From an uncultured Cetobacterium sp. (lineage in GTDB: Bacteria; Fusobacteriota; Fusobacteriia; Fusobacteriales; Fusobacteriaceae), in assembly GCF_945952365.1 (NCBI RefSeq), contig NZ_CAMFHX010000012.1:1-64000 (forward strand): DNA of 64,000 nt. The letters run 5' to 3'. The position numbers and the translations under genes were made by a program. Each line of letters starts with the position of its first letter. Positions within the stretch are counted from its first letter, which is position 1. Under the pieces are notes generated by a model. That model worked only from the letters and a program-made list of their open reading frames with translations, was not told the DNA's origin and made no database searches. Of the stretch, positions 40,968 through 61,012 are shown in pieces.

Positions 40968-42446
40968 ATGAATGAAAAAATTAAACTTCAATCTCCAAAA
41001 TGGCTTCACTTTGGTGCTGGAAATATATTTAGAGCATATATGGGAAAGGTTCAACAAACTCTTATAGAAAAAGGTTTAGAAAATAGTGGAATTGTTGTAG
41101 CAGAAACTTTTGATGGAGAGATTATACAAAAAGCTTTTAAGCCATATGATAACAAAACTATCTTGGTTACTTTAGATAAAAAAGGGGAATTTAAACCAGA
41201 AATTATTTGGAGTATAGTTGAGAGTATTGATGTAACATCAGATGGAATGAGTATAGTTGAAGAGATCTGTCAGGATGAGAAGTTACAAATAATAAGTTTT
41301 ACAATAACAGAGAAGGGGTATAGCTTCAGAGATGGAATCATTACTTCTGATCACTTGATGTCTAAGGTGACATCATTGCTTTATTCACGTTATAAAAAAA
41401 ATGCAGCACCGATAGCACTGTTAAGCATGGATAATTGTTCTGCTAATGGAGATAAGCTGAAAAATGCGATTGTATCTGTTGCACAAGAGTGGGTAAAAAA
41501 TGATGTTGTAGAAAAAGAATTTTTAGATTATCTTTTAGATGAGAAGAAAGTTAGTTATCCAATAACAATGATAGATAAGATAACTCCAAGACCAGCCATA
41601 GAGGTTAAAAAGTTTTTAGAAGAAGCTGGTTTTGAAAATATGGATATAGTTATAACAAGTAAAAATACTTATACAGCCCCATTTGTAAATGCTGAAGTTC
41701 CGGAATATTTTGTTGTTGAAGATAAGTTTCCAAATGGAAGACCAAAATTTGAAGAAGCTGGGGTTATATTGACTGATAGAGAGTCTGTCGAAAAAGCTGA
41801 AAGAATGAAGGTAACTACTTGTCTTAATCCATTACATACAGCATTAGCAATATATGGGTGTTTACTAAATAAAAAGACTATCGCAGAGTGTATGCAGGAT
41901 CAGGTTTTAAGTAATTTAGTTAGAAAGATAGGATATGAAGAGTCGCTTATAGTTGTTGAGAATCCGAAAATAATAGATCCTAAAAAGTTTTTAGAAGAGG
42001 TGTTAGAAGAAAGATTTGCTAATCCATTTATTCCAGATCAACCACAAAGGATAGCAACAGATACTTCTCAAAAAGTTGGGATTAGATTTGGTGAAACTAT
42101 TAAAGCGTATGTAGCAGATGAAAAGTTAGATGTAAGAAATTTAAAGTATATTCCTTTAGTTATAGCTGGTTGGATGCGTTATCTAATGGGAGTAGATGAT
42201 AGTGGAGCGATGATGACTTTGAGTAGTGATCCACTATTAGAAGAGTTGAAAGCTAATTTGAATAGTATAAAATACTTAGATTCTAGTAGTTATGAAAAAG
42301 GAAAGCTGAATAAGATTCTTTCAAATAAAAATATATTTGGAGTTGATTTAGTTCAAATTGGAATGGCTGATTTAATTGAAGAGTATTTCTTAGGTATGAT
42401 GAAAGAGGTTGGTGGAGTTAGGAAAACTTTGGAAAGAATATTATAA
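40968..42446 (+). CDS. uxuB: D-fructuronate reductase (mannitol dehydrogenase family)
   Basis: A 492-residue long-chain polyol dehydrogenase: LHFGAGNIFRAYMGKV (NAD binding), SFTITEKGYS, SMDNCSANGDKLKNAI, PITMIDKITPRP (catalytic Lys-x5-10-type block) and CLNPLHTALAIYG. It reduces D-fructuronate to D-mannonate with NADH, feeding UxuA. It is the last gene of the hexuronate operon, which ends in the hairpin at 42451-42481. Confidence 0.9.
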   Translation: MNEKIKLQSPKWLHFGAGNIFRAYMGKVQQTLIEKGLENSGIVVAETFDGEIIQKAFKPYDNKTILVTLDKKGEFKPEIIWSIVESIDVTSDGMSIVEEICQDEKLQIISFTITEKGYSFRDGIITSDHLMSKVTSLLYSRYKKNAAPIALLSMDNCSANGDKLKNAIVSVAQEWVKNDVVEKEFLDYLLDEKKVSYPITMIDKITPRPAIEVKKFLEEAGFENMDIVITSKNTYTAPFVNAEVPEYFVVEDKFPNGRPKFEEAGVILTDRESVEKAERMKVTTCLNPLHTALAIYGCLLNKKTIAECMQDQVLSNLVRKIGYEESLIVVENPKIIDPKKFLEEVLEERFANPFIPDQPQRIATDTSQKVGIRFGETIKAYVADEKLDVRNLKYIPLVIAGWMRYLMGVDDSGAMMTLSSDPLLEELKANLNSIKYLDSSSYEKGKLNKILSNKNIFGVDLVQIGMADLIEEYFLGMMKEVGGVRKTLERIL

Positions 42447-42450
42447 GTAG

Positions 42451-42481
42451 AAAAGAGCTAGTTTCGCCACTAGCTCTTTTT
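42451..42481. terminator. bidirectional terminator, AGAGCTAG stem
   Basis: AAAAGAGCTAG and CTAGCTCTTTT around a TTTCGCCA loop. It ends the hexuronate operon on the plus strand. On the minus strand it is the 3' hairpin of the small-RNA-like element that ends the operon coming from 44444. Confidence 0.85.
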
Positions 42482-42518
42482 AAATACAACGAAACTTACG
42501 TCATTGAATATTTTGTTT
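42451..42518 (-). ncRNA. antitoxin-like RNA element (second copy) in the 3' UTR
   Basis: The minus-strand sequence is a homologue of the small RNA at 48688-48762 over about 65 nt: an A-rich start, the hairpin CAATGA-CGTAAGTT-TCGTTG (one arm base changed, A-U becoming G-U paired), then the AGAGCTAG terminator. It lies right after the stop codon of the 42517 gene and has no clear promoter of its own, so it is probably a 3'-UTR segment or processed RNA. Its loop matches 11 nt of the 19-residue toxin-like mRNA leader at 48.62 kb. Confidence 0.6.
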
Positions 42519-43098
42519 AATTAGTTGAGTTACTCACTACTTTATCTTGAGAGTTTTCATTCGTTTTTTTATTACTTTTAGCAAAAATAACTTTGATAAT
42601 TTCTTCAATTTTCCCCATAACCTCGTGTGCCCCAAATCCAACTAAAAACCCTATTCCAACTTGGAAGTATAGAGATTCTGTTGTTTCAATATTAGTAGTA
42701 TTTAAGCTTATAAAACCATGTTGAAATAAGCAAATCATAATAGCAGCTAAAACAGCACCTTGAAGAGGTCTATAAAAATACCATAAGAACCATACTTTGA
42801 TATTGAGTGGTCGATAATATTTTTGATTAATAGGTGTTACAGAATGACCTATATTTTGATAAAGAGCTCTTAGTGAGTAAGATGCTCCTCCAATTAATCC
42901 TGCAATAAATACATGGAAAATAATTGAATATATTTTATTATCAGATAAAATATATTGTTTAAAAGTATCGAATATATTTGTGAATAGTGAAGATATTCCG
43001 AAGAGTATAAAGACTAGATTGCAGAAAGCTATAAGTATTATTAAGCTTATATCAGTTTTGTCTAATTTATCTATTTTTACCAAATTATCTGTAGTCAT
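42517..43098 (-). CDS. multi-pass membrane protein, unknown
   Basis: A 193-residue protein with about four hydrophobic segments (near residues 20-42, 60-80, 110-128 and 145-162), a GLIGGASYSLRALYQN motif and a charged, Lys/Asn-rich C-terminal tail. No family is recognised. It has a strong ribosome site (AAAGGAG) and lies 14 nt after the 147-residue gene in the leftward operon headed by the MBL-fold gene. It could be a membrane effector or anchor for the other two proteins; this is inferred from operon layout only. Confidence 0.6.
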   Translation of the reverse strand: MTTDNLVKIDKLDKTDISLIILIAFCNLVFILFGISSLFTNIFDTFKQYILSDNKIYSIIFHVFIAGLIGGASYSLRALYQNIGHSVTPINQKYYRPLNIKVWFLWYFYRPLQGAVLAAIMICLFQHGFISLNTTNIETTESLYFQVGIGFLVGFGAHEVMGKIEEIIKVIFAKSNKKTNENSQDKVVSNSTN

Positions 43099-43112
43099 AG
43101 TTAATCTCCTTT

Positions 43113-43556
43113 TTATATTTTATTGAAAGCATGTCTAAATTTAGGCATACCTGATTTTTTATTGGAATTAAAAAGATTCAGTTCAGAGTGAGTTATATTA
43201 AAAGAAAAATTGAATTCTTCACCAACTAAGAGGTCACTCGTACCATCTTTATTCTGTTCTGAAATATAAATTTTTTTATATTTCAGATGTTTTAGAGTTT
43301 TTAAATTATTAATTTGACATGAATTAATAATTAATCTTTTTTCTAAAATATTTGTATTTATTAAAAAGTTTTTAACAAGATTAGAATGACCACTAATAAA
43401 AAAAACGTCTAATTTATTAGCTGGAAAACTACTATAGATACAAAATTCATTTTTATGCTCTTTGAAGAAAAATTTGAGCTTAAAAATAGTTTCTAAGAAT
43501 TCTAGTCTATTTTTTACCTCATCTTTAGATGTACTTTTATGAATGGCATATCTCAA
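43113..43556 (-). CDS. unknown small protein with GHS...NSC motifs
   Basis: A 147-residue protein of no recognised family. Two adjacent strand-like segments end in DVFFISGHSN (about residues 50-59) and RLIINSCQIN (about 73-82), a His/Cys pair reminiscent of caspase/CHAT folds, although the 23-residue gap between His and Cys is shorter than usual. The C-terminus holds DGTSDLLVGEEFNFSFN and a basic tail. The start is TTG immediately after the MBL gene's stop, with that gene's end (GGAGGAGATGAG) serving as ribosome site, so the two are tightly coupled. It may bind a partner or a substrate of the MBL protein. Confidence 0.55.
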   Translation of the reverse strand: MRYAIHKSTSKDEVKNRLEFLETIFKLKFFFKEHKNEFCIYSSFPANKLDVFFISGHSNLVKNFLINTNILEKRLIINSCQINNLKTLKHLKYKKIYISEQNKDGTSDLLVGEEFNFSFNITHSELNLFNSNKKSGMPKFRHAFNKI

Positions 43557-44444
43557 TTACTCATCTCCTCCTAAGTTACCAGCAATAGAGGCTGAAGAGC
43601 TAAGGAGTAGTGAACATAAAATTTGTCCATCACGTGTATTTTTCATTTTATATCCTGGTTTTTTATAAATCTTATCAGAACCCCCAATTGTGCTTCCGGT
43701 ATTATCAGATACATAATAAATGATATCGTTTTTTCCATAATTTGTTGCCCAGATTTTTAAGGCTTGTTGCTCTTTTCCATGATGCGGTAGCTGAATATGA
43801 TTGTGATCTTTAATAACCTCTTCAATAGCATCAAAACAACTATCTCCGCAAAGTAAGACTTTTGTGTTATTAAATGTAACAGAAACTTGTGTACTAACAG
43901 CATTAATAATAGTTTCATTATTAATAGTATCGCCTTCCCGAGAGTCTAAAGCTTTAGCAACAGCTTCTAAAGTATAGTTTATATCAGGTCCAAGTATCTT
44001 AACATGTGGTGTGATTAGGGTGTTAATACTAGTTAATGTGTCGCAGAGAATCACATTTGTGTTGTTGCTAAGAGAATAAATATTATTGTAGATTTCGGTA
44101 ATATTTTTAGTTACAGACTCTCTAGTTTTTCGATTATCTCCAATTAATTCTAAAAGTTTATCTTTATGTTTAAGAAGTAAAAGTGTGTAAAGGTGAGAAA
44201 TTTTATTATTTTCTATAAGGTGAGGAACTCCCATAAAATGATCGGCATCTTGGTGTGAAAGAATGAGAATAGCTTTCTCATAGTTATTAGTCTTCATATA
44301 TTTAATAACTTCATTAGCGTGCTCAATTGAACCACAATCATAAATAACAAGCTTTCCATTAATATCAATTAAAACACAATCTCCATAATTTGTTGTTGTT
44401 GCATTTGTGTAATGTTTTGAACTTAAAAAATTAATATTTGGCAT
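43557..44444 (-). CDS. MBL-fold hydrolase (ComEC/Rec2-type metallo-beta-lactamase domain)
   Basis: A 295-residue cytoplasmic protein. The N-terminus NYGDCVLIDINGKLVIYDCGS and the metal motif ILSHQDADHFMG (HxDxDH, near residues 63-68), then VLLCGDSCFDAIEEV and IQLPHHGKEQQA (near 212-223), are the ComEC-type MBL signatures. There are no membrane segments, so it is a stand-alone enzyme, not a DNA-uptake channel. Substrates of such proteins are often nucleic acids or nucleotides, but none can be assigned. It is first in the leftward three-gene operon; ribosome site GGAGGG. Confidence 0.8.
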   Translation of the reverse strand: MPNINFLSSKHYTNATTTNYGDCVLIDINGKLVIYDCGSIEHANEVIKYMKTNNYEKAILILSHQDADHFMGVPHLIENNKISHLYTLLLLKHKDKLLELIGDNRKTRESVTKNITEIYNNIYSLSNNTNVILCDTLTSINTLITPHVKILGPDINYTLEAVAKALDSREGDTINNETIINAVSTQVSVTFNNTKVLLCGDSCFDAIEEVIKDHNHIQLPHHGKEQQALKIWATNYGKNDIIYYVSDNTGSTIGGSDKIYKKPGYKMKNTRDGQILCSLLLSSSASIAGNLGGDE

Positions 44445-44589
44445 TTAATTCCCTCCACAAAATATAAAAGTAATAAAAATAGACTCACATCTATACAAGC
44501 CTTAGTAATTATAATGAAAAAATTATTAAGGAAAACTTATGATTGATCAACATATTTATATTATCATAAAATATGTAAAAAATAAATAG

Positions 44590-44640
44590 TTTTACGTAAA
44601 AAACGTAAAAAATGTAAAATAAAGTTAAAAAAACTTTACA
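44590..44640. promoter_or_regulatory. operator region of the HTH / MBL divergent promoters
   Basis: TTTTACGTAAAA (perfect palindrome), a second ACGTAAAA and a third ATGTAAAA occur in a row, followed by the palindrome AAAGTT-AAAAAA-AACTTT, which runs into the -35 of the HTH gene. The 224-bp gap between divergent operons contains nothing else recognisable. These are likely sites for the HTH protein. Confidence 0.55.
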
Positions 44641-44662
44641 AAATGAAAGGTGATGATATAAT
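44635..44662 (+). promoter_or_regulatory. promoter giving a probable leaderless mRNA
   Basis: TTTACA, a 16-nt spacer and TATAAT with the TG-A extension. The expected start of transcription, about 7 nt after TATAAT, falls on the ATG at 44669. The purine stretch AAAGG lies upstream of the -10 and so would not be in the transcript. Confidence 0.6.
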
Positions 44663-44668
44663 AGTGTC

Positions 44669-45364
44669 ATGAAGATAAAAGAAAAATTAAAAAAATATGA
44701 AATTACATTAAATGAATTTGCAGAAGTTTTAAATTTATCGAGACCAACTTTAAATACTTATATTAACCAGTTTGAAGCTGGAGATCAAATTGGTAATAAA
44801 AATTATCAAGAGATTTTTGTAAAATTATTTGGAACGCATGATATAACACGTGAAAAGTTTGAAGAGGTTTATCAAAATTTAAATTTTAAAGCAAATAAAG
44901 ATGAATACACAAAAGAGAATCGTGAAATAATGGATTCAATAATTAAAAAAGTAAAAGAGGATTTAAGAGGAAAAAAGGAAACTGTAGCTTTGTATAAATT
45001 TATAAATAGTGCAATTCATAACTATGAAAAAGATAAGGCTTTAACAGGTTACATAAATTATAACCTGTATCTAAACGGATTAAAGTCGATGGAAAAAATA
45101 AAATTTAAAGATAAAAAATTAATATCAAATTTATTTCCTGTAATGAAAAATTATATTGATTGTAAGCTGAAGTTAAATTTAGAGCAATATAAAAAATTTA
45201 AGGAAAGAACACAAGAAATCGAATTAGGAAGAGTAAAGAAACAAGAAGAGTTAAAAGTAGAAATTGAAAAAAAAATTCGTGAAGAGATAGAAAGAAAAAT
45301 GGAACAAGGATTAGGAATTGAAAGTATAGATATTGAAAATATTTTAAATAGTATTAAGATATAA
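44669..45364 (+). CDS. helix-turn-helix regulator with a coiled-coil tail
   Basis: A 231-residue protein. The N-terminal HTH is KKYEITLNEFAEVLNLSRPTLNTYINQFE (about residues 8-36). The rest is helical, with a long charged coiled coil (about 165-215) full of Glu/Lys/Arg. It probably represses itself and the divergent MBL operon through the sites at 44590-44640. It is followed 67 nt later by an ImmA/IrrE-type metallopeptidase gene, the classic partner that cleaves such repressors in phage and ICE control. The predicted transcript is leaderless. Confidence 0.7.
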   Translation: MKIKEKLKKYEITLNEFAEVLNLSRPTLNTYINQFEAGDQIGNKNYQEIFVKLFGTHDITREKFEEVYQNLNFKANKDEYTKENREIMDSIIKKVKEDLRGKKETVALYKFINSAIHNYEKDKALTGYINYNLYLNGLKSMEKIKFKDKKLISNLFPVMKNYIDCKLKLNLEQYKKFKERTQEIELGRVKKQEELKVEIEKKIREEIERKMEQGLGIESIDIENILNSIKI

Positions 45365-45431
45365 AGATAAAAAATGATATAATTGAAATTAGGATAGTAA
45401 TAAATTAAATTAAATTAAAAAGGTGGTAAAA

Positions 45432-45950
45432 ATGTTTGAAAAGAAGGAGATTTCAGACCTAGTAAATAAACTCCTAGAGACAAATGGAATGTCAACAATG
45501 CCTTTGATAGACTTAGATTTGTTATTAAAGTCAGAAGGTATCAAATTATTTAAGTTTTCAAAATCAGAGTGGAAGGATAAAAATTTTCCAGATGCGTCAG
45601 CAATATTGCTAAAAAGTGGTAATGAAAAAATTATAATAATAAATGAACAGGCCCATAAGTTAGAAGAGGATAAGATATTTACGATAGCTCATGAAATAGG
45701 ACATTTCTTTTTGCATACTACAGAAGAAAAACCATATGTTTTATGTAGACATGGACAATCAGGAGATAAAGAGAAAGAGGATGAAGCAGACTACTTCGCA
45801 GCTTGTTTATTGATGCCAGAAAAGATTTTTAAGGAATTAGTTAATAAAGTTGAGATTCCTAGTGTGAAAGTATTTGCAAAAATCTTTGGAGTATCAGAAA
45901 CAACAACAAGAAAAAGATTTTCTGAATTGAACATATTTTGCGTAGACTAA
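45432..45950 (+). CDS. ImmA/IrrE-family metallopeptidase
   Basis: About 172 residues starting at the ATG at 45432, which has AAGGTGG 7 nt upstream (a GTG at 45423 would overlap that site). The zinc motif FTIAHEIGHFFLH (HExxH near residues 88-92) is followed by a distal acidic residue in EKEDEADYFAACLLMP. Family members cleave HTH repressors (ImmR/DdrO) upon DNA damage or other signals. The adjacent HTH protein is the likely target, so the pair is expected to switch this island's promoters. Confidence 0.85.
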   Translation: MFEKKEISDLVNKLLETNGMSTMPLIDLDLLLKSEGIKLFKFSKSEWKDKNFPDASAILLKSGNEKIIIINEQAHKLEEDKIFTIAHEIGHFFLHTTEEKPYVLCRHGQSGDKEKEDEADYFAACLLMPEKIFKELVNKVEIPSVKVFAKIFGVSETTTRKRFSELNIFCVD

Positions 45951-45976
45951 GAGGAATATTAACTTAGGAGAAGATA

Positions 45977-46561
45977 ATGCCAAATAACAATCTTGAAATA
46001 GCGGATATACTTGGGTCGATTGAGGGTAAAGATGAGTTTAAAGTAGATCGTGAAAATGAAAAGAAAATAAGTAATGAAACATTGAATGAATTAACGAAAG
46101 ATATTTGCAAAAAGTTGATAGGGATTATTGAACATTCTGAAAATTGGCGTAAGTTTATTTTAAAACTTATTTTGATAGTGGTATTCTCTACAGTGTTGAT
46201 AGGAATTCCAACAGGTTTGTATCTATTGGGTGAAATTTATTTAGAAGCTTATATAAAAAATCCTGAATTAAAAATGTTAGACCCTTTGGGCTTGGTGGCA
46301 ATATTATTCACATCTTGGAAGATAATATCGGTGACATTAAATAAAATCGTGGATAATATATTTGGTATTGATAAAACATTGGTAAAGGTTCTATTGAGGC
46401 TTTTGAATAAAGAAGAGATGGAGTTTAAATCTGAAAAAGGTCTTATAAAAGATGAGAAAGATACGGACTATATTAAAATTTCTAGACCAACAAGTGTAAA
46501 GAATGTGGTTTGTGGAATATTGGAGTATTTAAAGGCTGTATTTGAAGCCGTGTTAAAGTAA
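45977..46561 (+). CDS. membrane protein, unknown
   Basis: A 194-residue protein with two membrane helices (about residues 58-82 and 105-120), a cytoplasmic N-terminal domain (about 1-50) and a charged C-terminal region. No family is recognised. It begins 26 nt after the peptidase gene with TAGGAGAAG as ribosome site and is the last gene of the rightward HTH operon, which closes at the 46585 hairpin. It might be the effector of the switch or an unrelated cargo gene. Confidence 0.6.
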   Translation: MPNNNLEIADILGSIEGKDEFKVDRENEKKISNETLNELTKDICKKLIGIIEHSENWRKFILKLILIVVFSTVLIGIPTGLYLLGEIYLEAYIKNPELKMLDPLGLVAILFTSWKIISVTLNKIVDNIFGIDKTLVKVLLRLLNKEEMEFKSEKGLIKDEKDTDYIKISRPTSVKNVVCGILEYLKAVFEAVLK

Positions 46562-46584
46562 TTAAAATAAGTTGGTTGTATGGA

Positions 46585-46612
46585 AAAGAGTTAGGAAACT
46601 AGCTCTTTTTTT
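46585..46612 (+). terminator. rho-independent terminator
   Basis: AAGAGTTAG and CTAGCTCTT around GAAA, followed by seven T. It is followed directly by the shared promoter module (TTTGATGAG..TTTTAGAATG-TGGTATAAT) of the first Rpn gene. Confidence 0.85.
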
Positions 46613-46630
46613 GATGAGAATTTTAGAATG

Positions 46631-46639
46631 TGGTATAAT
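46631..46639 (+). promoter_or_regulatory. extended -10 of rpn copy 1 (shared module)
   Basis: TG-G-TATAAT about 25 nt upstream of the ATG at 46664. The block around it (TTTTAGAATGTGGTATAATA) recurs upstream of rpn copy 2 (47595) and of the DUF1703 gene (49017). Confidence 0.6.
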
Positions 46640-46663
46640 ATATTAAAAAAAGGATGTGATAGT

Positions 46664-47497
46664 ATGTGTACAAGCTTATTAGATCCAAAGATGGATTTTA
46701 TATTTAAAAGTATATTTGGAAATGAAAAAGAGAAGAGTGTGTTGTTATCATTTTTGAATTCTGCGATAAAATCAGAATCACCGTTAGTAGATGTAGAGTT
46801 AAGAAATGTAGAGATAACAAAAGAAGCGATAGAGGATAAAAATAGTAGGTTAGATGTAAAAGCAGTAGCCAATGATGGAACTATTATAAATGTAGAGATT
46901 CAACTTAGAAATGAATATAATATGCCAAAGAGAACACTTTATTACTGGAGTAAGCTTTACTCAGAGCAACTAAAAGAGGGAGAGAACTATTTAAATCTAA
47001 ATAGAACTATCTGTATAAATATATTAAATTTCATACAATTTAAAGAAACACAAAATTATCATAGTGTATTTAAAATTATAGAGGAGAAAGAGAATATAGT
47101 TTTAAATAAAGACCTTGAAATTCACTTTTTAGAGCTTCCAAAGTTGGTGGAGTTTAGAGTTGATGATCCATTATCTGGATGGGGGATGTTTTTAAAAGAA
47201 CCTTCTAGTGATATAGTAGAAGAAGCAGAAGAAACTGTTAAAGAGATAAAATTAGCAAAGAAAAAGCTGTATGTAATAAGTTCAGATGAGGATGAACGTG
47301 AAAAATATAGAATGAGAGAGAAAGCTAGGTTAGATGCAGCCAGTGCTTTAGCTACAGCAGAGTTGAAAGGCAAAGCTGAAGGGGAAAGGTTAGCAAAATT
47401 ATCAATAGCAAAGAGTTTGTTAGGGATAATACCAAATGAATTAATAGCTGAAAAAACAGGATTAAGTATAGAAGAGATAGAGCTACTAAAATATTAG
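46664..47497 (+). CDS. Rpn-family PD-(D/E)XK nuclease, tandem copy 1
   Basis: A 277-residue protein starting at the ATG at 46664 (AAAGGATG ribosome site); an upstream ATG at 46628 would place the promoter inside the gene. It opens LLDPKMDFIFKSIFGNEKEKSV, the Rpn/PDDEXK-transposase signature, with SRLDVKAVANDGTIINVEIQLR containing the D...E-x-Q catalytic block. Rpn proteins are DNA nucleases that promote recombination, and some act in phage defence with an intragenic C-terminal antitoxin. An in-frame ATG at 47312 could start such a C-terminal piece, though its ribosome site is weak. DNA identity with copy 2 is complete for about 600 bp, and only the last 25-30 codons diverge. Confidence 0.85.
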   Translation: MCTSLLDPKMDFIFKSIFGNEKEKSVLLSFLNSAIKSESPLVDVELRNVEITKEAIEDKNSRLDVKAVANDGTIINVEIQLRNEYNMPKRTLYYWSKLYSEQLKEGENYLNLNRTICINILNFIQFKETQNYHSVFKIIEEKENIVLNKDLEIHFLELPKLVEFRVDDPLSGWGMFLKEPSSDIVEEAEETVKEIKLAKKKLYVISSDEDEREKYRMREKARLDAASALATAELKGKAEGERLAKLSIAKSLLGIIPNELIAEKTGLSIEEIELLKY

Positions 47498-47538
47498 AGA
47501 TTAAAATTAGAAAATAGTATGGGAATTTCATTGTATAA

Positions 47539-47573
47539 GAAAGAGCTAGGAGTGAGAAACTAGCTCTTTTTTT
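47539..47573 (+). terminator. rho-independent terminator between rpn copies
   Basis: AAGAGCTAG and CTAGCTCTT around a GAGTGAGAAA loop plus seven T, the same stem family as at 46585. The rpn copy 2 promoter module follows. Confidence 0.85.
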
Positions 47574-47624
47574 GATGAGATTTTTAGAATGTGGTATAAT
47601 ATATTAAAAAAAGGATGTGATAGT

Positions 47625-48461
47625 ATGTGTACAAGCTTATTAGATCCAAAGATGGATTTTATATTTAAAAGTATATTTGGAAATGAAAAAGAGAAGAGTG
47701 TGTTGTTATCATTTTTGAATTCTGCGATAAAATCAGAATCACCGTTAGTAGATGTAGAGTTAAGAAATGTAGAGATAACAAAAGAAGCGATAGAGGATAA
47801 AAATAGTAGGTTAGATGTAAAAGCAGTAGCCAATGATGGAACTATTATAAATGTAGAGATTCAACTTAGAAATGAATATAATATGCCAAAGAGAACACTT
47901 TATTACTGGAGTAAGCTTTACTCAGAGCAACTAAAAGAGGGAGAGAACTATTTAAATCTAAATAGAACTATCTGTATAAATATATTAAATTTCATACAAT
48001 TTAAAGAAACACAAAATTATCATAGTGTATTTAAAATTATAGAGGAGAAAGAGAATATAGTTTTAAATAAAGACCTTGAAATTCACTTTTTAGAGCTTCC
48101 AAAGTTGGTGGAGTTTAGAGTTGATGATCCATTATCTGGATGGGGGATGTTTTTAAAAGAACCTTCTAGTGATATAGTAGAAGAAGCAGAAGAGACTGTA
48201 AAAGAGATAAAATTAGCAAAGAAAAAGCTATATGTAATAAGTTCAGATGAAGATGAACGTGAAAAGTATAGAATGAGAGAAAAAGCTAGGTTAGATGCAG
48301 CCAGTGCTTTAGCCACAGCAGAGTTAAAAGGTAAAGCTGAAGGGGAAAGATTAGCAAAATTAAAGATTGCTAAAAATGCTCTTCAAAATGGGATGAGTTC
48401 TGAAATTGTTTCAGGCATAACAGGATTGAGTGTAGAGGAGATAGAGCTACTAAAATATTAG
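47625..48461 (+). CDS. Rpn-family PD-(D/E)XK nuclease, tandem copy 2
   Basis: A 278-residue protein 961 bp downstream of copy 1 and identical to it in the first about 200 residues. Differences are silent at first and then, after GKAEGERLAKL, the C-terminal tail is distinct: KIAKNALQNGMSSEIVSG in place of SIAKSLLGIIPNELIAEK, before both end EIELLKY. The same promoter block is used (extended -10 at 47592-47600), and the start at 47625 is chosen as for copy 1. A diversified C-terminus on a constant nuclease domain fits the published idea that Rpn C-termini encode or bind cognate inhibitors; this is inferred. Confidence 0.85.
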   Translation: MCTSLLDPKMDFIFKSIFGNEKEKSVLLSFLNSAIKSESPLVDVELRNVEITKEAIEDKNSRLDVKAVANDGTIINVEIQLRNEYNMPKRTLYYWSKLYSEQLKEGENYLNLNRTICINILNFIQFKETQNYHSVFKIIEEKENIVLNKDLEIHFLELPKLVEFRVDDPLSGWGMFLKEPSSDIVEEAEETVKEIKLAKKKLYVISSDEDEREKYRMREKARLDAASALATAELKGKAEGERLAKLKIAKNALQNGMSSEIVSGITGLSVEEIELLKY

Positions 48462-48520
48462 AGATTAAAAATTAGAAAATAGTATGAGAATTTTAGAATC
48501 TTGTATAATTTAACTGAAAA

Positions 48521-48550
48521 TAAAAAGACTAGGTGGGCGAACACCTAGTC
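48521..48550 (-). terminator. terminator of the toxin-like transcript
   Basis: GACTAGGTG-TTCGC-CCACCTAGTC followed by TTTTTATTTT on the minus strand, with a 9-bp stem. It is well placed 9 nt after the stop codon of the 19-residue peptide. Confidence 0.9.
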
Positions 48551-48559
48551 AGTGATTAT

Positions 48560-48619
48560 CTAGTACCCTTTTTTAACTAGTAGGAAAAAAAGGACAATAA
48601 CAAAAAAGATTCTTAACAT
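48560..48619 (-). CDS. putative type I toxin, 19-residue hydrophobic peptide
   Basis: ATG at 48619 to TAG at 48560 encodes MLRIFFVIVLFFLLVKKGY. This is one membrane-spanning hydrophobic stretch with a basic residue near each end, and size and pattern recall the Ibs family (18-19 residues, also ending in -Y); homology is not claimed. The Shine-Dalgarno AAAGGGGGTGA lies 10 nt upstream and is sequestered in a leader hairpin. The space between it and the ATG (TGAAACTTACGT) is complementary to the loop of the small RNA encoded just upstream. The peptide is inferred to depolarise or disturb the inner membrane when translated. Confidence 0.7.
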   Translation of the reverse strand: MLRIFFVIVLFFLLVKKGY

Positions 48620-48665
48620 ACGTAAGTTTCACCCCCTTTCTAGAGGTAGATAACCACTAAAAATA

Positions 48666-48671
48666 ATTATA
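48666..48671 (-). promoter_or_regulatory. -10 of the toxin-like gene
   Basis: TATAAT on the minus strand, just after the small RNA terminator. The -35 region is T-rich without a clear hexamer, so this promoter looks weaker than that of the antitoxin RNA. Confidence 0.5.
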
Positions 48672-48687
48672 CCCCAATGAATAAAAT

Positions 48688-48762
48688 AAAAAAAGAGCTA
48701 GTTTTCGCCCCTAGCTCTTTTTCATACAATGAAACTTACGTCATTGAATCTTTTTGTTTGTT
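48688..48762 (-). ncRNA. putative antitoxin small RNA (about 75 nt)
   Basis: It is predicted from a promoter (TTGATT-17-TATAAT) to a terminator (AGAGCTAG...CTAGCTCT plus T-run). Its 5' part carries the hairpin CAATGA-CGTAAGTT-TCATTG. The ACGTAAGTTTCA in and next to the loop is the exact complement of the 12 nt TGAAACTTACGT between the Shine-Dalgarno and the start codon of the toxin-like gene, with two more G-U pairs. Binding would block ribosomes. It is encoded upstream in tandem on the same strand rather than antisense over the target. A second copy of the RNA lies at 42451-42518. Confidence 0.75.
48693..48720. terminator. AGAGCTAG-type terminator
   Basis: AAAAGAGCTAG and CTAGCTCTTTT around TTTTCGCCC. 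It ends the small RNA on the minus strand and could work in both directions. Confidence 0.85.
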
Positions 48763-48768
48763 AGAAAT

Positions 48769-48797
48769 ATTATACTCTTATTCTAAATAAAAATCAA
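48769..48797 (-). promoter_or_regulatory. sigma70-type promoter of the antitoxin RNA
   Basis: TTGATT, a 17-nt spacer and TATAAT on the minus strand, one of the better promoters in the window. It is stronger-looking than the toxin promoter, as expected for an abundant antitoxin. Confidence 0.75.
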
Positions 48798-48845
48798 TAA
48801 AATTATAAAAATCTTAAGAAAACCTAAGTGTAATTAAAAGAGTTT

Positions 48846-48874
48846 TTGACTTTTTGAAATAAATAGTTTAAAAT
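48846..48874 (+). promoter_or_regulatory. sigma70-type promoter of a candidate small RNA
   Basis: TTGACT, a 17-nt spacer and TAAAAT on the plus strand, divergent from the antitoxin RNA promoter. The start is expected near 48881. Confidence 0.7.
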
Positions 48875-48880
48875 TAATTC

Positions 48881-48995
48881 AAGGACCTTAAAGGAACTTT
48901 GGTTGTATAAAAAACGTGATGATATAGGCTTTCACTTCGGTGGAAGCTTATTTCATGTGTATAAGTTAGTCACGACCCTTTAGGGGTCTTTTTTT
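48881..48995 (+). ncRNA. candidate structured small RNA (about 115 nt)
   Basis: It runs from the promoter at 48846 to the terminator GACCC-TTTAG-GGGTC plus T-run. In between is a UUCG-capped 8-bp hairpin (GCTTTCAC-TTCG-GTGGAAGC) inside an outer CGTGA/TCACG stem. A 26-codon frame starting with TTG at 48903, with AAAGGA upstream, also fits and ends in the terminator loop, so it could instead encode a small peptide. The structure looks more like a non-coding RNA, but this is not settled. Confidence 0.55.
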
Positions 48996-49013
48996 GATGA
49001 GAGTTTTAGAATG

Positions 49014-49022
49014 TGGTATAAT
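49014..49022 (+). promoter_or_regulatory. extended -10 of the DUF1703 gene (shared module)
   Basis: TG-G-TATAAT in the same TTTTAGAATG block used by the rpn genes, again directly after a T-run terminator and TTTGATGAG. It is 26 nt upstream of the ATG at 49048. Confidence 0.6.
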
Positions 49023-49047
49023 ATATTAAAAAAAGGTGGTGGAAAGT

Positions 49048-50697
49048 ATGGAGAGAAAAAAATTACCAATCGGTGTGAGCGACTTTAAAAAGCTGATAGA
49101 AGAAAACTACTATTACATTGATAAAACAGGATTTATAGAGGAGATTTTAGAAAAAAAAGCAGAAGTTACACTGATATGTAGACCAAGACGTTTTGGTAAG
49201 ACTCTGAATATGAGTACTTTGAAATACTTTTTAGATAGAAAAAATGCAGAGAAGAATAATCAACTTTTTAGAGGTTTAAATATAGAAAAGAGTAAATATA
49301 TGGCTGAGGCAGGAAAATATCCAGTTATATTTTTAACTATGAAGGGAATTAATGGAGAGAACTATTCTAAATTTTTACAAAAGTTCAGCTCGGTTTTGAG
49401 TGATTTATATAATGACTATGAAGATCTCAGAGAGTCTCTTAATCTGAAAGAGAAGATGTATTTTGACAAAGTTTGGTTAGGAGAACCCGATACAGATTTG
49501 ACAAGAGCTTTAAAATTTTTGAGTGATATTGTATATAAATATTCTGGAATAAAGCCAGTGCTACTAATAGATGAGTATGATTCGCCAATGATAGTGGCTC
49601 ATGAAAAAGGTTATTATGAAGAGGTAAAAGAGCTGATAGGAGATTTTTATGGTGAAGCCTTAAAGGATGCACCGATCTCTTTTGCAGTGGTAACTGGGAT
49701 TTTGAGAGTGGCAAAAGAGTCTATATTTTCTAGTTTAAATAACTTGAAAGTTTCTACGCTATTAACAAATAATTACAATCATTTTGGAATGACAGAGGGT
49801 GAAGTAGAAACTATTTTAAAGTATTATGGATTAGAAACAGAGCTCGATTTAGCTAAGAGTTGGTATAACGGTTATACTTTTGGAAATGAAAAAGTGTATA
49901 ACCCTTGGAGTATATTAAATCACTGTGAGAATGGAGATTTAATATCTTACTGGGTAAATACAAGTGCGAATACTCTTATTATGCAACTTTTAAAAGATGC
50001 TGATGAGGATATAAATGATACTTTCTATGAACTATTGAGAGGTGGTGTTGCAAGAGCTATTTTGGATGATAATATGATATTTGGTGAAAAATATAGTGAT
50101 AGTACAATTTTGTATTTAATGTTTTCTGCTGGGTATTTAACGATAGATAGAGTTGGAGAAAGACGGAGAGAGTATTATCTTAGAATACCAAACGAAGAGG
50201 TAAAAGATTATTTCAGAAAAACATTCGTTGAAATAGCTGATTCTGCTGGAGAAAATAGTTTTTCAAAGTTAGAAGAAGCACTTTTAGTTGGGAAAATTTT
50301 TGGTAATAACTCTGTGGAAGCGAAGATAAACTCTATGTTTCAGACGAGTATGAGTTACCTAGATGGATCAAAACAAGAGAAGTTTTATCACAACTTGATA
50401 CTCGGGATGATGATAGGCTTAGATGATAAGTTTTACATACATTCAAATCGAGAAGAGGGGTTAGGGCGTTATGACTTAGCTCTAGAGCCAAAGAGTAAAA
50501 GTGGAATTGGATATATTTTCGAATTTAAAGTAGCGGTTTCAAGCTCAGAACATGACTTTGATCAGGCAGGAGCTGAGGCATTAGCTCAGATAGATAAAAA
50601 AATATATGAAACAGGACTAAGAGAGCGTGGAGTAGAAAAGATTATTAAAATAGGGATGGTCTTTGCTAGTAAGGTGCTAAAACTATACGTGAAATAG
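49048..50697 (+). CDS. AAA-ATPase-like protein with PD-(D/E)XK nuclease domain (DUF1703 type), copy 1
   Basis: About 549 residues from the ATG at 49048 (AAGGTGG ribosome site; upstream GTGs would overlap it). LPIGVSDFKKLIEENYYYIDKT leads to the P-loop LICRPRRFGKTLNMS (about residues 42-56) and the Walker B PVLLIDEYDSPM (about 170-181). The C-terminal region has HSNREEGLGRYDLALEP and GYIFEFKVA, a D...E-x-K nuclease-like site near 470-493. The family is common in Fusobacteria and Bacteroidetes, with unknown cellular role. It is about 75 percent identical by eye to the gene at 59351. It shares its promoter block with the rpn genes. Confidence 0.85.
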   Translation: MERKKLPIGVSDFKKLIEENYYYIDKTGFIEEILEKKAEVTLICRPRRFGKTLNMSTLKYFLDRKNAEKNNQLFRGLNIEKSKYMAEAGKYPVIFLTMKGINGENYSKFLQKFSSVLSDLYNDYEDLRESLNLKEKMYFDKVWLGEPDTDLTRALKFLSDIVYKYSGIKPVLLIDEYDSPMIVAHEKGYYEEVKELIGDFYGEALKDAPISFAVVTGILRVAKESIFSSLNNLKVSTLLTNNYNHFGMTEGEVETILKYYGLETELDLAKSWYNGYTFGNEKVYNPWSILNHCENGDLISYWVNTSANTLIMQLLKDADEDINDTFYELLRGGVARAILDDNMIFGEKYSDSTILYLMFSAGYLTIDRVGERRREYYLRIPNEEVKDYFRKTFVEIADSAGENSFSKLEEALLVGKIFGNNSVEAKINSMFQTSMSYLDGSKQEKFYHNLILGMMIGLDDKFYIHSNREEGLGRYDLALEPKSKSGIGYIFEFKVAVSSSEHDFDQAGAEALAQIDKKIYETGLRERGVEKIIKIGMVFASKVLKLYVK

Positions 50698-56824: not shown

Positions 56825-57382
56825 ATGATAAAAGGATTGGTGTTGATAGAGCCTAAGATATATAGTGATGAAAGGGGTTTTTTCTATGAGTTTTTCAATT
56901 GTAAAACTTTGGAAAAATATAATATAGATGTAAATTTTGTGCAGGGAAATCACTCGAAGAGTGAGTTTGGTGTTTTGAGGGGCTTACACCTTCAAAAAGT
57001 TCAACCTCAAGCAAAACTTATAAGGGTTTTAAAAGGTGAGATTTTAGATGTTGTTGTGGATTTGAGGGATGGCAGTGAAACTTTTGGTGAAATTTATAAA
57101 GTTATTTTGAGTGAGGAAAATAGAAAACAGCTTTATATACCAGAGGGGTTTGCTCATGGGTTTTTGAGTTTAAAGGAAAACACAGAAATAGAGTATCTTT
57201 GTAGTGATTACTATGCACCTCAATATGAATCGGGGATATTTCCATTTGATTCGGATTTAAGTATCGATTGGGAGTTGGAAAAATATGGGTTATCTTCTGA
57301 GGACTTGATAATATCTTCTAAGGATAAAAATCTACCTAGTTTTAAAGAGTTCTGTGAGAACTTGAAAGAGGTGATGAGATGA
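56825..57382 (+). CDS. rfbC: dTDP-4-dehydrorhamnose 3,5-epimerase
   Basis: A 185-residue cupin: GLVLIEPKIYSDERGFFYEFFN, FVQGNHSKSEFGVLRGLHLQ (catalytic His in LRGLH-x-Q), VVVDLRDGSETFG, LYIPEGFAHGFLSL and EYLCSDYYAP. It converts dTDP-4-keto-6-deoxyglucose to dTDP-4-keto-L-rhamnose. It overlaps the RmlD-RmlB gene by 4 nt. Confidence 0.94.
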   Translation: MIKGLVLIEPKIYSDERGFFYEFFNCKTLEKYNIDVNFVQGNHSKSEFGVLRGLHLQKVQPQAKLIRVLKGEILDVVVDLRDGSETFGEIYKVILSEENRKQLYIPEGFAHGFLSLKENTEIEYLCSDYYAPQYESGIFPFDSDLSIDWELEKYGLSSEDLIISSKDKNLPSFKEFCENLKEVMR

Positions 57383-59295
57383 TATTGATAACTGGTGGAG
57401 CAGGGCAACTGGCTCAAGAGTTCTCTAGGTTTTTTAAAGAGAATAGTATAGAATTTACAGCTCCTAAAAGAGCTGAGTTGGATATAAGGGATTTTGAAAA
57501 GGTGAGAGAGTTTGTAAAGAGTAATGGTGTGACTTTAATTATAAACTGTGCTGCTTATAACTTTGTAGATAAAGCTGAGGAGGAGCCAGAGATTGCTAAC
57601 GCTGTTAACGCTTTTGCTGTAGAGAATTTGGCTAAGGTGGCAAAAGAGTTAGAGATAGAGTTTGTGACATATTCGACTGATTTTGTTTTCGATGGAGAGA
57701 AGTTAGGAGCTTACACTGAAGAGGATGAGGTGAATCCAATCTCTGTTTACGGGAAAAGTAAGGCGTTAGGGGAGAGTTTAGCTTTAGAGGCTAATGATAA
57801 GACGTATATATTTAGAGTGTCATGGGTGTTTGGAAAAGATGGGATGAATTTTATAGAGCAGGTTAAAAGTTGGTCGAAGAGAGATAAAATAGCTTTAGCG
57901 AGTGACCAAATCTCATCTCCTACGAGTACAATCGATATAGTTAATATAACTATGAAGATGTTAGGATTGAAAGAGAAAAGATATGGTATATATCATCTAA
58001 GTGGAGAGGAAGAGGTTTCACGTTACGAGCAGGGAAGGTATATTTTGGAAAAGTTGGGATATAAAGGTGAAGTTGTTCAGGCTCGTTGCTCTGACTTTAC
58101 ACCTTATGATATAAGACCAAAATATTCGAAATTATGTAGCTCGAAGATAGAGAAACTCTTGGAAATTGAAATTCCAAGTTGGAAGATACGTACAGATGAG
58201 TATCTTGAAGTAAAAAAAAGGTATCTTGTGACAGGTGGTGCTGGGTTTATCGGTGCTAACTTTGTGAAATATATGTTAGAAAAATATGAAGCTATAGAGA
58301 TAGTTATCTTAGATAAGTTAACTTACGCCGGGAATCTTGGGACTATAAGAGAGGAGTTAAAGGATAACAGAGTAACTTTCTTTAAGGGAGATATCTGTAA
58401 CCGTGAGTTAGTAGAGAATATATTTATGGCTCATGATATAGATGCAGTAGTTAACTTTGCTGCTGAGTCTCATGTGGATCGTAGTATAGAAAATCCTGGG
58501 ATATTCTTAGAGACAAATATTCTTGGAACACAAAACCTGATGGAGGTTGCTAAAGCTTTCTGGACTATTGGAAAGGATGGTAACGGGTATCCTATCTATA
58601 AAGAGGGTAAGAAGTTCCATCATGTTTCAACAGATGAGGTGTATGGAAGTTTAAGTTTAGATGACCCAATGTTTACAGAGAGAACTCCGCTTGATCCACG
58701 TAGCCCATATTCAGCTTCAAAAGCTTCGGCTGATATGATGGTGGTTGCATATGGAGAGACTTACAAGTTCCCATTCAATATAACTAGATGTTCTAATAAC
58801 TACGGACCTTATCACTTCCCAGAGAAGTTGATTCCTCTGATTATTAAAAATATCTTGGCTGGTAAGAAACTGCCAGTTTATGGAAAGGGAGATAACATAA
58901 GAGATTGGCTTTATGTTGTGGACCACTGTAAAGCAATTGATATAGTGCTATCTCAGGCTCCGACTCATCAGATTTACAATATTGGTGGATTCAACGAAGA
59001 GCAAAATATCAACATTGTAAAATTAACTATAGATACTATAGCTAGAATAATGAAGAATGAGCCTCAATATAGAAGTGTGTTGACTACAGAGGTAGAGAAT
59101 ATCAACTATGATCTAATCACTTATGTTCAGGATAGACTAGGGCATGATGCTAGATATGCCATTGATCCTACAAAGATTGTAAATGAGTTGGGATGGTATC
59201 CAGAGACTGAGTTTACTGATGGAATAGAAAAGACTATCAGATGGTATCTAGATAACCAAGCTTGGGTTGAAGAGGTAGCTTCTGGTGACTACTAG
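57379..59295 (+). CDS. fused dTDP-4-dehydrorhamnose reductase and dTDP-glucose 4,6-dehydratase (RmlD-RmlB)
   Basis: A 638-residue fusion. Residues 1-275 are RmlD: ILITGGAGQLAQEF, INCAAYNFVDKAEEEPE, YSTDFVFDGEK and YGKSKALGE. Residues about 279-638 are a complete RmlB: YLVTGGAGFIGANFVKYML, DKLTYAGNL, AAESHVDRSIENP, HVSTDEVYGSL and the catalytic PYSASKASADMMV (Tyr near 444). The two dehydrogenase-type domains are joined without an evident linker. Both active sites look intact. It would carry the second and fourth steps of dTDP-rhamnose synthesis in one chain, with RmlA and RmlC encoded upstream. Confidence 0.92.
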   Translation: MILITGGAGQLAQEFSRFFKENSIEFTAPKRAELDIRDFEKVREFVKSNGVTLIINCAAYNFVDKAEEEPEIANAVNAFAVENLAKVAKELEIEFVTYSTDFVFDGEKLGAYTEEDEVNPISVYGKSKALGESLALEANDKTYIFRVSWVFGKDGMNFIEQVKSWSKRDKIALASDQISSPTSTIDIVNITMKMLGLKEKRYGIYHLSGEEEVSRYEQGRYILEKLGYKGEVVQARCSDFTPYDIRPKYSKLCSSKIEKLLEIEIPSWKIRTDEYLEVKKRYLVTGGAGFIGANFVKYMLEKYEAIEIVILDKLTYAGNLGTIREELKDNRVTFFKGDICNRELVENIFMAHDIDAVVNFAAESHVDRSIENPGIFLETNILGTQNLMEVAKAFWTIGKDGNGYPIYKEGKKFHHVSTDEVYGSLSLDDPMFTERTPLDPRSPYSASKASADMMVVAYGETYKFPFNITRCSNNYGPYHFPEKLIPLIIKNILAGKKLPVYGKGDNIRDWLYVVDHCKAIDIVLSQAPTHQIYNIGGFNEEQNINIVKLTIDTIARIMKNEPQYRSVLTTEVENINYDLITYVQDRLGHDARYAIDPTKIVNELGWYPETEFTDGIEKTIRWYLDNQAWVEEVASGDY

Positions 59296-59317: not shown

Positions 59318-59350
59318 ATATAAAAATAATATAGAGAGAAGGTGGAAAGT

Positions 59351-61012
59351 ATGGATAAGAAAAAATTACCAGTGGGTGTGAGCAATTTTAAAGAGTTGAT
59401 AAAAGAAAATTATTACTATGTTGATAAAACGGGATTTATAGAGGAGATTTTGGAAAAAAGAGCAAATGTAACTTTGATTTGTAGGCCAAGACGTTTTGGT
59501 AAAACTTTAAATATGAGTACACTGAAGTATTTTTTAGATAGAGATAATGCTCAGGAAAATAGAAGGCTTTTCAATGGCCTAAAGATAGAGAAGACTGAGT
59601 ATATGAGAGAACAAGGGAAATATCCAGTTATATTTTTAAGTATGAAAGGAGTTAAGGGCGAAAGTTATTCTAAATTTTTACAAAAATTTAGTTCGGTTTT
59701 AATTGATTTATATAATGAATATGAAGTTTTTAGAGAAAAGTTAAATATGAGTGAGAAGATGTATTTTGATAAAGTTTGGTTAGGGGATCCTGATGCAGAC
59801 CTTTCAAAGGCTCTAAAGTTTTTAGGTGATATACTATATAAATACTCAGGAATAAAGCCTGTTTTATTAATAGATGAATACGATTCTCCAATGATAGTAG
59901 CAAATGAAAAAGGGTATTACGAAGAGGCAAAAGAGTTAATAGGAGATTTTTATGGGGATGGACTAAAGGATGCACCAATTTCTTTTGCAGTGGTAACAGG
60001 AATCCTTAGGGTGGCGAAAGAGTCTATATTTTCAACTCTTAACAATTTGAAAGTTTCAACGCTGTTAACCGAAAACTATAATCATTTTGGTATGACTGAG
60101 TATGAGGTAGAAACTATTCTAAAATATTACGGATTGGAAACAACTGTGGATGCTGCTAAGAGTTGGTATAATGGTTATACGTTTGGAGATGAAAAAGTAT
60201 ATAATCCTTGGAGTATATTAAATCACTGTGAGAATGGAAAGTTGATCTCTTATTGGGTAAATACGAGTGCTAATACTCTTATTATGAAACTATTAAAAGA
60301 TGCGGATAATGATATCAATGATATTTTTTACGAGTTATTGAGAGGAAGAGCTGCAAAAACTATACTAGATGACAGTATGATATTTGGTGAAAAATATAGT
60401 AACAGTACAATTTTATATTTGATGTTTTCAGCAGGGTATTTGACAATAGATAGGATTGGCGAGGAAGAGGACCAATACTATTTAAGAATACCAAATTTAG
60501 AAGTAAAAAAGTATTTTAGGAAAACGTTTATAGAGATTTTGACACCGAAGAGTAAGGATAGTTTTTCTAAGTTAAAAGAGGCTCTAGTGATAGGAAAAAT
60601 TCGTGGAAATGATTCAATTGAGGAAAAGATAAATGGATTTTTCATGGCTAGTATGAGTTATTTAGATGGAGCTAAAGAGGAGAAGTTTTATCATAACTTA
60701 ATTTTGGGGATGATGATAGGATTGGATGATAAATTTTATATTCATAGTAACCGTGAAGAGGGATTGGGGCGTTATGACTTAGCTCTTGAACCACGTGATA
60801 AAAATGCTGTTGGATATATCTTTGAATTTAAGGTTGCTGAATCTACATCAGAAAGTGATTTTAAAAAGGCAGGAGCTGAAGCTCTATCTCAGATAGATAA
60901 AAAAATTTATGAAGTTGGCTTAAGAGAACGTGGTATTCAGAAAATCGTTAAAATTGGAATGGTATTTTCTGGTAAAATTATGAAGCTTTATATAAAAGAG
61001 AAGGTTGGATAG
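59351..61012 (+). CDS. AAA-ATPase-like protein with PD-(D/E)XK nuclease domain (DUF1703 type), copy 2
   Basis: About 553 residues from the ATG at 59351. LICRPRRFGKTLNMS, KPVLLIDEYDSPMIV, the HSNREEGLGRYDLALEP motif and IFEFKVAES all match copy 1 at 49048, with differences spread evenly, so the duplication is old compared with the rpn copies. Both copies share the GGTGGAAAGTATGGA leader, which suggests mobility or gene conversion of the unit. Role is unknown: it may be DNA-related, given the nuclease-like C-terminus. Confidence 0.85.
   Translation: MDKKKLPVGVSNFKELIKENYYYVDKTGFIEEILEKRANVTLICRPRRFGKTLNMSTLKYFLDRDNAQENRRLFNGLKIEKTEYMREQGKYPVIFLSMKGVKGESYSKFLQKFSSVLIDLYNEYEVFREKLNMSEKMYFDKVWLGDPDADLSKALKFLGDILYKYSGIKPVLLIDEYDSPMIVANEKGYYEEAKELIGDFYGDGLKDAPISFAVVTGILRVAKESIFSTLNNLKVSTLLTENYNHFGMTEYEVETILKYYGLETTVDAAKSWYNGYTFGDEKVYNPWSILNHCENGKLISYWVNTSANTLIMKLLKDADNDINDIFYELLRGRAAKTILDDSMIFGEKYSNSTILYLMFSAGYLTIDRIGEEEDQYYLRIPNLEVKKYFRKTFIEILTPKSKDSFSKLKEALVIGKIRGNDSIEEKINGFFMASMSYLDGAKEEKFYHNLILGMMIGLDDKFYIHSNREEGLGRYDLALEPRDKNAVGYIFEFKVAESTSESDFKKAGAEALSQIDKKIYEVGLRERGIQKIVKIGMVFSGKIMKLYIKEKVG

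Follow-up and report, generated by a model that had tools for sequence, protein, structure and literature searches.

The window, a 64,000-nucleotide stretch of contig 12 of a 2.5-Mb genome available as a draft in 61 contigs, carries two neighbouring genes, rpn-1 and rpn-2, offset by 961 bp. The features of this tandem pair are the following:

46604-46658, + strand: promoter module of rpn-1, a 55-nt repeat comprising an upstream terminator T-tract, a promoter (TTTTAGAAT..TGGTATAAT) and a Shine-Dalgarno (SD) sequence
46621-47232, + strand: identical tract of 612 bp, every base equal to 47582-48193 in the pairwise alignment
46664-47497, + strand: rpn-1, Rpn-family PD-(D/E)XK nuclease of 277 aa with a type I tail (PF12784, E=8.8e-65; TIGR01784, E=1.9e-58)
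47233-47401, + strand: codons 190-246 of rpn-1, with ten synonymous and zero amino-acid differences from rpn-2
47312-47497, + strand: RpnS frame of 61 aa from an internal ATG, as proposed by a first-pass annotation of this DNA; start unsupported, no SD
47402-47455, + strand: type I tail patch, SIAKSLLGIIPNELIAEK, rpn-1 codons 247-264 (18 codons, 54 bp), 41% identical in nucleotides to the rpn-2 patch
47456-47506, + strand: C-terminal end common to both genes, TGLSIEEIELLKY, with the rpn-1 3' flank; 94% identity to 48419-48470 across 52 nt
47565-47619, + strand: promoter module of rpn-2, 98% identical to 46604-46658
47625-48461, + strand: rpn-2, Rpn-family PD-(D/E)XK nuclease of 278 aa with a type II tail (PF12784, E=8.8e-65; TIGR01784, E=2.1e-63)
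48363-48419, + strand: type II tail patch, KIAKNALQNGMSSEIVSGI, rpn-2 codons 247-265 (19 codons, 57 bp)

The first-pass annotation had identified both genes as Rpn nucleases, and this identity is borne out by whole-length matches of rpn-1 and rpn-2 to PF12784 (219 bits; cut-off 27.4) and by TIGR01784 scores of 198.5 and 214.7 bits, respectively (cut-off 52.1; model positions 1-271 of 273). The PD-(D/E)XK-type residues D64, E78 and Q80 (D...E-x-Q) are kept in both proteins and are invariant across the aligned relatives. As also described in that annotation, the two copies 961 bp apart have a common promoter, a common start and some 600 bp of common DNA, which we measure at 612 bp. This identical tract spans a -10-like TATAAT, the Shine-Dalgarno sequence AAAGG and the first 189 codons, with a single A/T mismatch (46620/47581) lying just 5' of it; since the genome is a 61-contig draft, the exactness of the identity could be inflated by assembler bubble merging. 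The few silent differences reported to follow it number ten, all of them synonymous and all within codons 190-242. Finally, the last 25-30 codons were said to differ. Sequence and length do differ ahead of a common EIELLKY, but over only 18 or 19 codons, which form an internal patch, and the last 13 residues are alike in both proteins (TGLS[I/V]EEIELLKY). The number of four-residue repeats is equal in the two genes and it is the cassette after the repeats that differs. Because identity is 97% over the ten codons upstream of the patch and 92% over the 13 codons downstream, and because the end is common, the variable piece is a swapped internal patch and not a wholly different tail. A change of this extent, next to some 240 codons that stayed the same, cannot be put down to random point mutations.

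In a structure model, the C-terminal 70 residues are predicted as one long helix (209-254) and, after it, two short ones (259-266 and 270-277), with a pLDDT of about 78-88; the model is shallow, built from five sequences, with a mean pLDDT of 62 and a poor nuclease part. The type I patch corresponds to the end of the long C-terminal helix, the loop and the next helix. A fold search of the PDB with this model returned nothing below E 0.001 and is uninformative because of the poor nuclease part. The rpn-2 tail aligns collinearly and without gaps over 39 residues with the RpnA-S antitoxin structure 7TH0, a weak match (E=0.12). Repeat insertions in RpnA occur at H261 (PMC10327210), the residue preceding IAK in the 7TH0 alignment, so that the insertion site would coincide with the left edge of the patch. 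The RpnS C-terminal domain, whose fold is related to helix-turn-helix proteins, has been shown directly to dimerise and inhibit, and it is an antitoxin with cognate-only action: RpnA-S fails to block RpnB-L, and one added four-residue repeat abolishes inhibition (PMC10327210). Tail hypervariability, repeat variation, an intragenic antitoxin and stand-alone RpnS genes are already published for the Rpn family (PMC10327210, PMC5350276).

Tails were compared with bodies in 133 full-length relatives, drawn for the most part from Fusobacteriota and from the family to which the Sarcina ventriculi genome belongs. The tails fall largely into two types, type I (AKxLLDxLDxETIxxKTGLS) and type II (about AKxxLxxGLDxExIxxxTGLS, one residue longer), which have conserved motifs and are common to bodies only 35% identical. 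Across the 133 relatives, the correlation between body identity and tail identity is only 0.24. For pairs at least 80% identical elsewhere, 31-column windows are on average 0.83-0.93 identical up to column 198 and 0.53-0.63 identical from column 222. Along the body tree, the 127 typed rows show 24 switches of tail type (shuffled: mean 40.8, minimum 30); each of six body segments, clustered in the same way as the tails, switches 1-4 times. The tails of relatives are therefore modular, which the first-pass annotation had proposed to check, and vary far more than the bodies; its refuting case, tails that vary no more than the body, is clearly not what is found. For a breakpoint test, pairs were chosen solely on columns far from the junction. 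Changepoints within columns 236-256, which hold the four-residue repeat tract, make up 83% of 71 and are found in 13 of 19 disjoint pairs, placing the junctions mostly in that tract, directly before the IAK motif.

High-identity tails on divergent bodies mostly have a synonymous identity that is just slightly raised, 0.65 against 0.56, which suggests that many of the exchanges took place long ago or are kept up by selection. Recent exchange at the DNA level is clear in the sister genome G001 and is suggested in a few clostridial pairs, but is not general; tails shared outside these cases may be older. The mosaic, the two discrete tail types on unlike bodies, the body-independent exchange of tails and the repeat-tract junctions are established as far as sequence comparison reaches, and the tail is very probably a module that is inherited on its own and can be exchanged. 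Such exchange at the repeats would add to the published hypervariability and repeat variation; in the accessible text of the two Rpn papers (PMC10327210, PMC5350276) we found no description of module exchange at the repeat tract.

Genes of this kind are sporadic, PF12784 being present in 6 of 61 genomes of the bacterial family. The sister genome G001 contains a three-gene rpn array with one common tail: two body-A genes of 283 and 287 aa differ by one four-residue repeat, and the third gene, whose body B is window-like, has lost an internal segment in frame. Bodies A and B are 51-67% identical in DNA, rising to 97-99% in the tail, and the rpn-1 patch is 76% identical in nucleotides to this array tail. 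The array shows the reverse of the window pair: unlike bodies and one tail, as against like bodies and unlike tails. Another body-B derivative in G001, of 156 aa and with the nuclease middle deleted in frame, bears a type II tail. In the window's own genome (G000), an orphan gene of 81 aa on another contig (G000:C18, about 45981-46271, minus strand; L049) has a type II tail and keeps the rpn promoter, the start and the full C-terminal domain, the nuclease having been lost in frame; its intact orthologue lies in the same gene neighbourhood in G004 (G004:C16). The orphan is a candidate for a stand-alone antitoxin that arose through a deletion. Nucleotide identity between its patch and that of rpn-2 is 84%, compared with 67% in the ten codons preceding the patch. 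Together, the G001 array, the 156-aa derivative, and the orphan with the rpn-2 patch indicate that both tail types occur on both body types. Three deletion derivatives have lost the nuclease yet retain an intact, in-frame C-terminal domain. Besides the orphan, two Rpn derivatives with the nuclease deleted in frame and the N-terminus and tail kept were noted in G001, at L015 972-1442 and L011 4977-5591.

Sibling copies within genomes were counted by genome position. Eleven same-genome pairs in 9 genomes, including the near-complete two-contig G062, combine a body identity of at least 0.85 with a tail identity of at most 0.6; like bodies with unlike tails are thus seen in 9 of the 20 genomes having like-bodied pairs. 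The 24 sibling clusters comprise 59 copies with 57 distinct C-terminal domains, near-identical copies nearly always differing in repeat number or tail. Among same-tail siblings, the repeat tract differs in 42 of 45 within-genome pairs, every difference being a multiple of four residues. Since 18 of 24 same-tail pairs between genomes differ as well, the within-genome excess of differing repeats is borderline (equal repeat number in 3 of 45 within genomes versus 6 of 24 between; Fisher p=0.056), and distinct sibling tails could reflect merely fast change. Variation by four-residue repeats, a trait of RpnL/RpnS, is seen in the G001 copies and in all same-tail sibling pairs of differing length, not between rpn-1 and rpn-2. 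Six tandem rpn genes at G106:C1:2078582-2084538 (L119) have nearly identical bodies and tails and four repeat-tract lengths.

The rpn genes of E. coli and C. difficile encode an internally started antitoxin (PMC10327210), and the ATG at 47312 had been put forward as an internal start in rpn-1. This ATG (48273 in rpn-2) is the sole canonical in-frame start past codon 175 that lies upstream of the tail and is common to both copies. It was rejected: SD pairing is +0.3 kcal/mol in rpn-1 and -0.6 in rpn-2, compared with -6.5 at the true start, methionine is found there in just 26% of relatives, and the pairing 5' of it is poorer than under a synonymous null. Past codon 175, no in-frame ATG, GTG or TTG of rpn-1 or rpn-2 has SD pairing better than -1 kcal/mol. 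About 45 of the 133 relatives have an in-frame start with a strong SD (often AAGGAGG) at alignment columns 187-193, where rpn-1 and rpn-2 are without a start codon; in about half of these relatives the SD is stronger than in synonymous shuffles, and an RpnS made from this start would mostly be 80-105 residues long. In clostridial rpn genes, the ATG at columns 187-193 is likely a conserved internal start; examples with AAGGAGG and an in-frame ATG are L127, L160 and L164. The antitoxin model is well founded for the Rpn family and is putative for rpn-1 and rpn-2.

The reading that we favour, at a probability of roughly two in three, is that of a tandem Rpn toxin pair with homogenised bodies and an exchangeable C-terminal cassette giving insulated toxin-antitoxin units. 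The tandem nuclease toxin genes would have arisen by duplication, and the promoter, start and nuclease would have been recently homogenised (or recently duplicated), the copies retaining different alleles of a short exchangeable cassette predicted to be part of a C-terminal RpnS-like helical domain. From the E. coli Rpn papers we infer that the antitoxin form binds the full-length toxin at the C-terminal domain and that matching domains are needed, in which case a differing cassette (the rpn pair) or a differing repeat number (most other siblings) would make each toxin respond to its own inhibitor only. Two copies of one nuclease would then coexist as insulated toxin-antitoxin units against phage. 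Since the published antitoxin action of RpnS is cognate-only, it is probable that the tail swap insulates rpn-1 and rpn-2 from each other, and the "own specificity" which the first-pass annotation attributed to each copy is plausible as antitoxin specificity. A broader Rpn cassette system, in which discrete C-terminal inhibitor modules would be swapped between resident copies at the 12-bp repeats encoding the four-residue tract, possibly stimulated by Rpn nucleases, and would yield mutually insulated toxins in one cell, is a tentative extension that we consider possible but rather doubtful.

Other explanations of the unlike tails were weighed. The tail might set the DNA or phage-target preference of the nuclease instead of antitoxin recognition, the two copies cutting different targets. 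Target preference has been proposed for E. coli Rpn, with truncation of the RpnD tail lowering activity (Kingston et al. 2017, PMC5350276), and the helix-turn-helix relationship of the RpnS fold (PMC10327210) is in line with it; the same paper, however, reports RpnA as a nonspecific endonuclease, dimerisation and inhibition by the domain are direct data (PMC10327210), and the variable unit is the end of the dimerisation helix plus one short helix. We regard target preference as improbable. It is likewise unlikely that the genes are a neutral outcome, tandem paralogues in which gene conversion acted on the conserved portion while the tail, under weak constraint, drifted fast with no effect on function. 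Although the synonymous differences beside the patch represent older divergence outside the converted tract, and the repeat tract is prone to length change in all genomes, the patch is non-random, coming in two recurring types with conserved motifs on bodies 35% identical, and the C-terminal domain of the three deletion derivatives has outlived the nuclease intact and in frame.

An assembly artefact, which would either have made two diverged or distant copies identical or have created a tandem that does not exist, is very unlikely, even in a draft of 61 contigs where an identical tract is the place at which assembler bubbles might merge. The stretch between the copies starts and ends in the repeat, which would leave the tandem order as the sole simple graph path; bubble merging leaves the patch itself unaffected; and like bodies with unlike tails recur in other assemblies, including that of G062 in two contigs. 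We give hardly any credence to a spread of rpn copies as transposable elements whose tails mark different source elements: the family was once named putative transposase and the promoter module is common to several genes, but no inverted terminal repeats or target duplications were found around the pair, and for the family none were found and arrays were interpreted as tandem duplications (PMC10327210).

The insulated tandem pair with an exchangeable cassette resembles E. coli RpnL/RpnS (Zhong et al. 2023, PMC10327210; 7TH0) in its match to TIGR01784, which also matches the E. coli control genome, in the E-x-Q motif, in a predicted long helix that has four-residue repeats and precedes two short ones, in tandem arrays and in stand-alone C-terminal genes. 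The window genes differ in matching PF12784, in having equal repeats with a different cassette and in lacking a recognisable internal ribosome-binding site; inhibition here is putative. The Rpn/YhgA-like proteins of Kingston et al. 2017 (PMC5350276) have the same layout of conserved nuclease, conserved segment and variable tail, but there the tail differs between diverged paralogues, whereas in the window it differs between identical bodies and the exchange points are mapped. The type I restriction subunit HsdS (EcoR124, a comparison made in PMC10327210) is alike in outline: a repeat separates its modules, and specificity shifts when the repeat number is altered or a module is exchanged. HsdS is not homologous to Rpn, and nothing in this analysis points to DNA reading by the Rpn tail. 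Rpn proteins, toxin-antitoxin nucleases that act against phage, are widespread, and their tail hypervariability has so far been explained by repeat-number change. Modular tail exchange would be a second route to new specificity. With equal repeats and nearly the same protein, apart from 18 codons in one copy and 19 in the other, the window pair is a near-isogenic comparison supplied by nature for asking whether toxin-antitoxin recognition depends on the tail alone.

A third copy of the promoter module (48987-49041, 95% identical to 46604-46658) precedes an unrelated AAA-ATPase/PDDEXK_9 gene, and the module is also found 5' of the G000:C18 orphan and of the G004:C16 rpn gene, with copies elsewhere in G000 and G004. 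The 42.5-52.7 kb region around the pair encodes a metallo-beta-lactamase-fold protein, an ImmA/IrrE-type peptidase, the AAA-ATPase/PDDEXK_9 protein and an AAA_15/21 ATPase with its partner gene; several of these genes match defence-related models, and the rpn pair sits in what we call a defence-like island. In none of 11 further genomes of the genus was the stretch 42450-46600 found whole. PADLOC gave no Rpn model match at the pair's locus, and Rfam gave no match over 42300-49100. A viral-contig scan returned no relative with a single-protein query and one distant relative with an alignment query, while a plasmid search gave distant matches only, apart from a short hairpin that matches a plasmid of Cetobacterium somerae. 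Relatedness searches place the window's genome in the Fusobacteria, and with this plasmid match of a repeat the genus is probably Cetobacterium or a near one.

Some further elements were noted in the window. A 19-aa hydrophobic peptide, MLRIFFVIVLFFLLVKKGY (48560-48622, minus strand), has a strong SD and a terminator hairpin and lies within a repeat (48535-48770) that is also found at G000:C46, G000:C21, G004:C74 and G004:C43; this repeat has the appearance of a dispersed type I toxin-antitoxin element, and its hairpin is similar to the terminators that precede rpn-1 and rpn-2. Dispersed paralogues of an AAA-ATPase/PDDEXK_9 protein lie at 49036-50697, at 59342-61012 and on G000:C6, with 74-78% DNA identity in parts. 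Finally, 57379-59295 forms one frame of 638 aa that, by eye, is an apparent fusion of RmlD-like and RmlB-like sugar-nucleotide enzymes.
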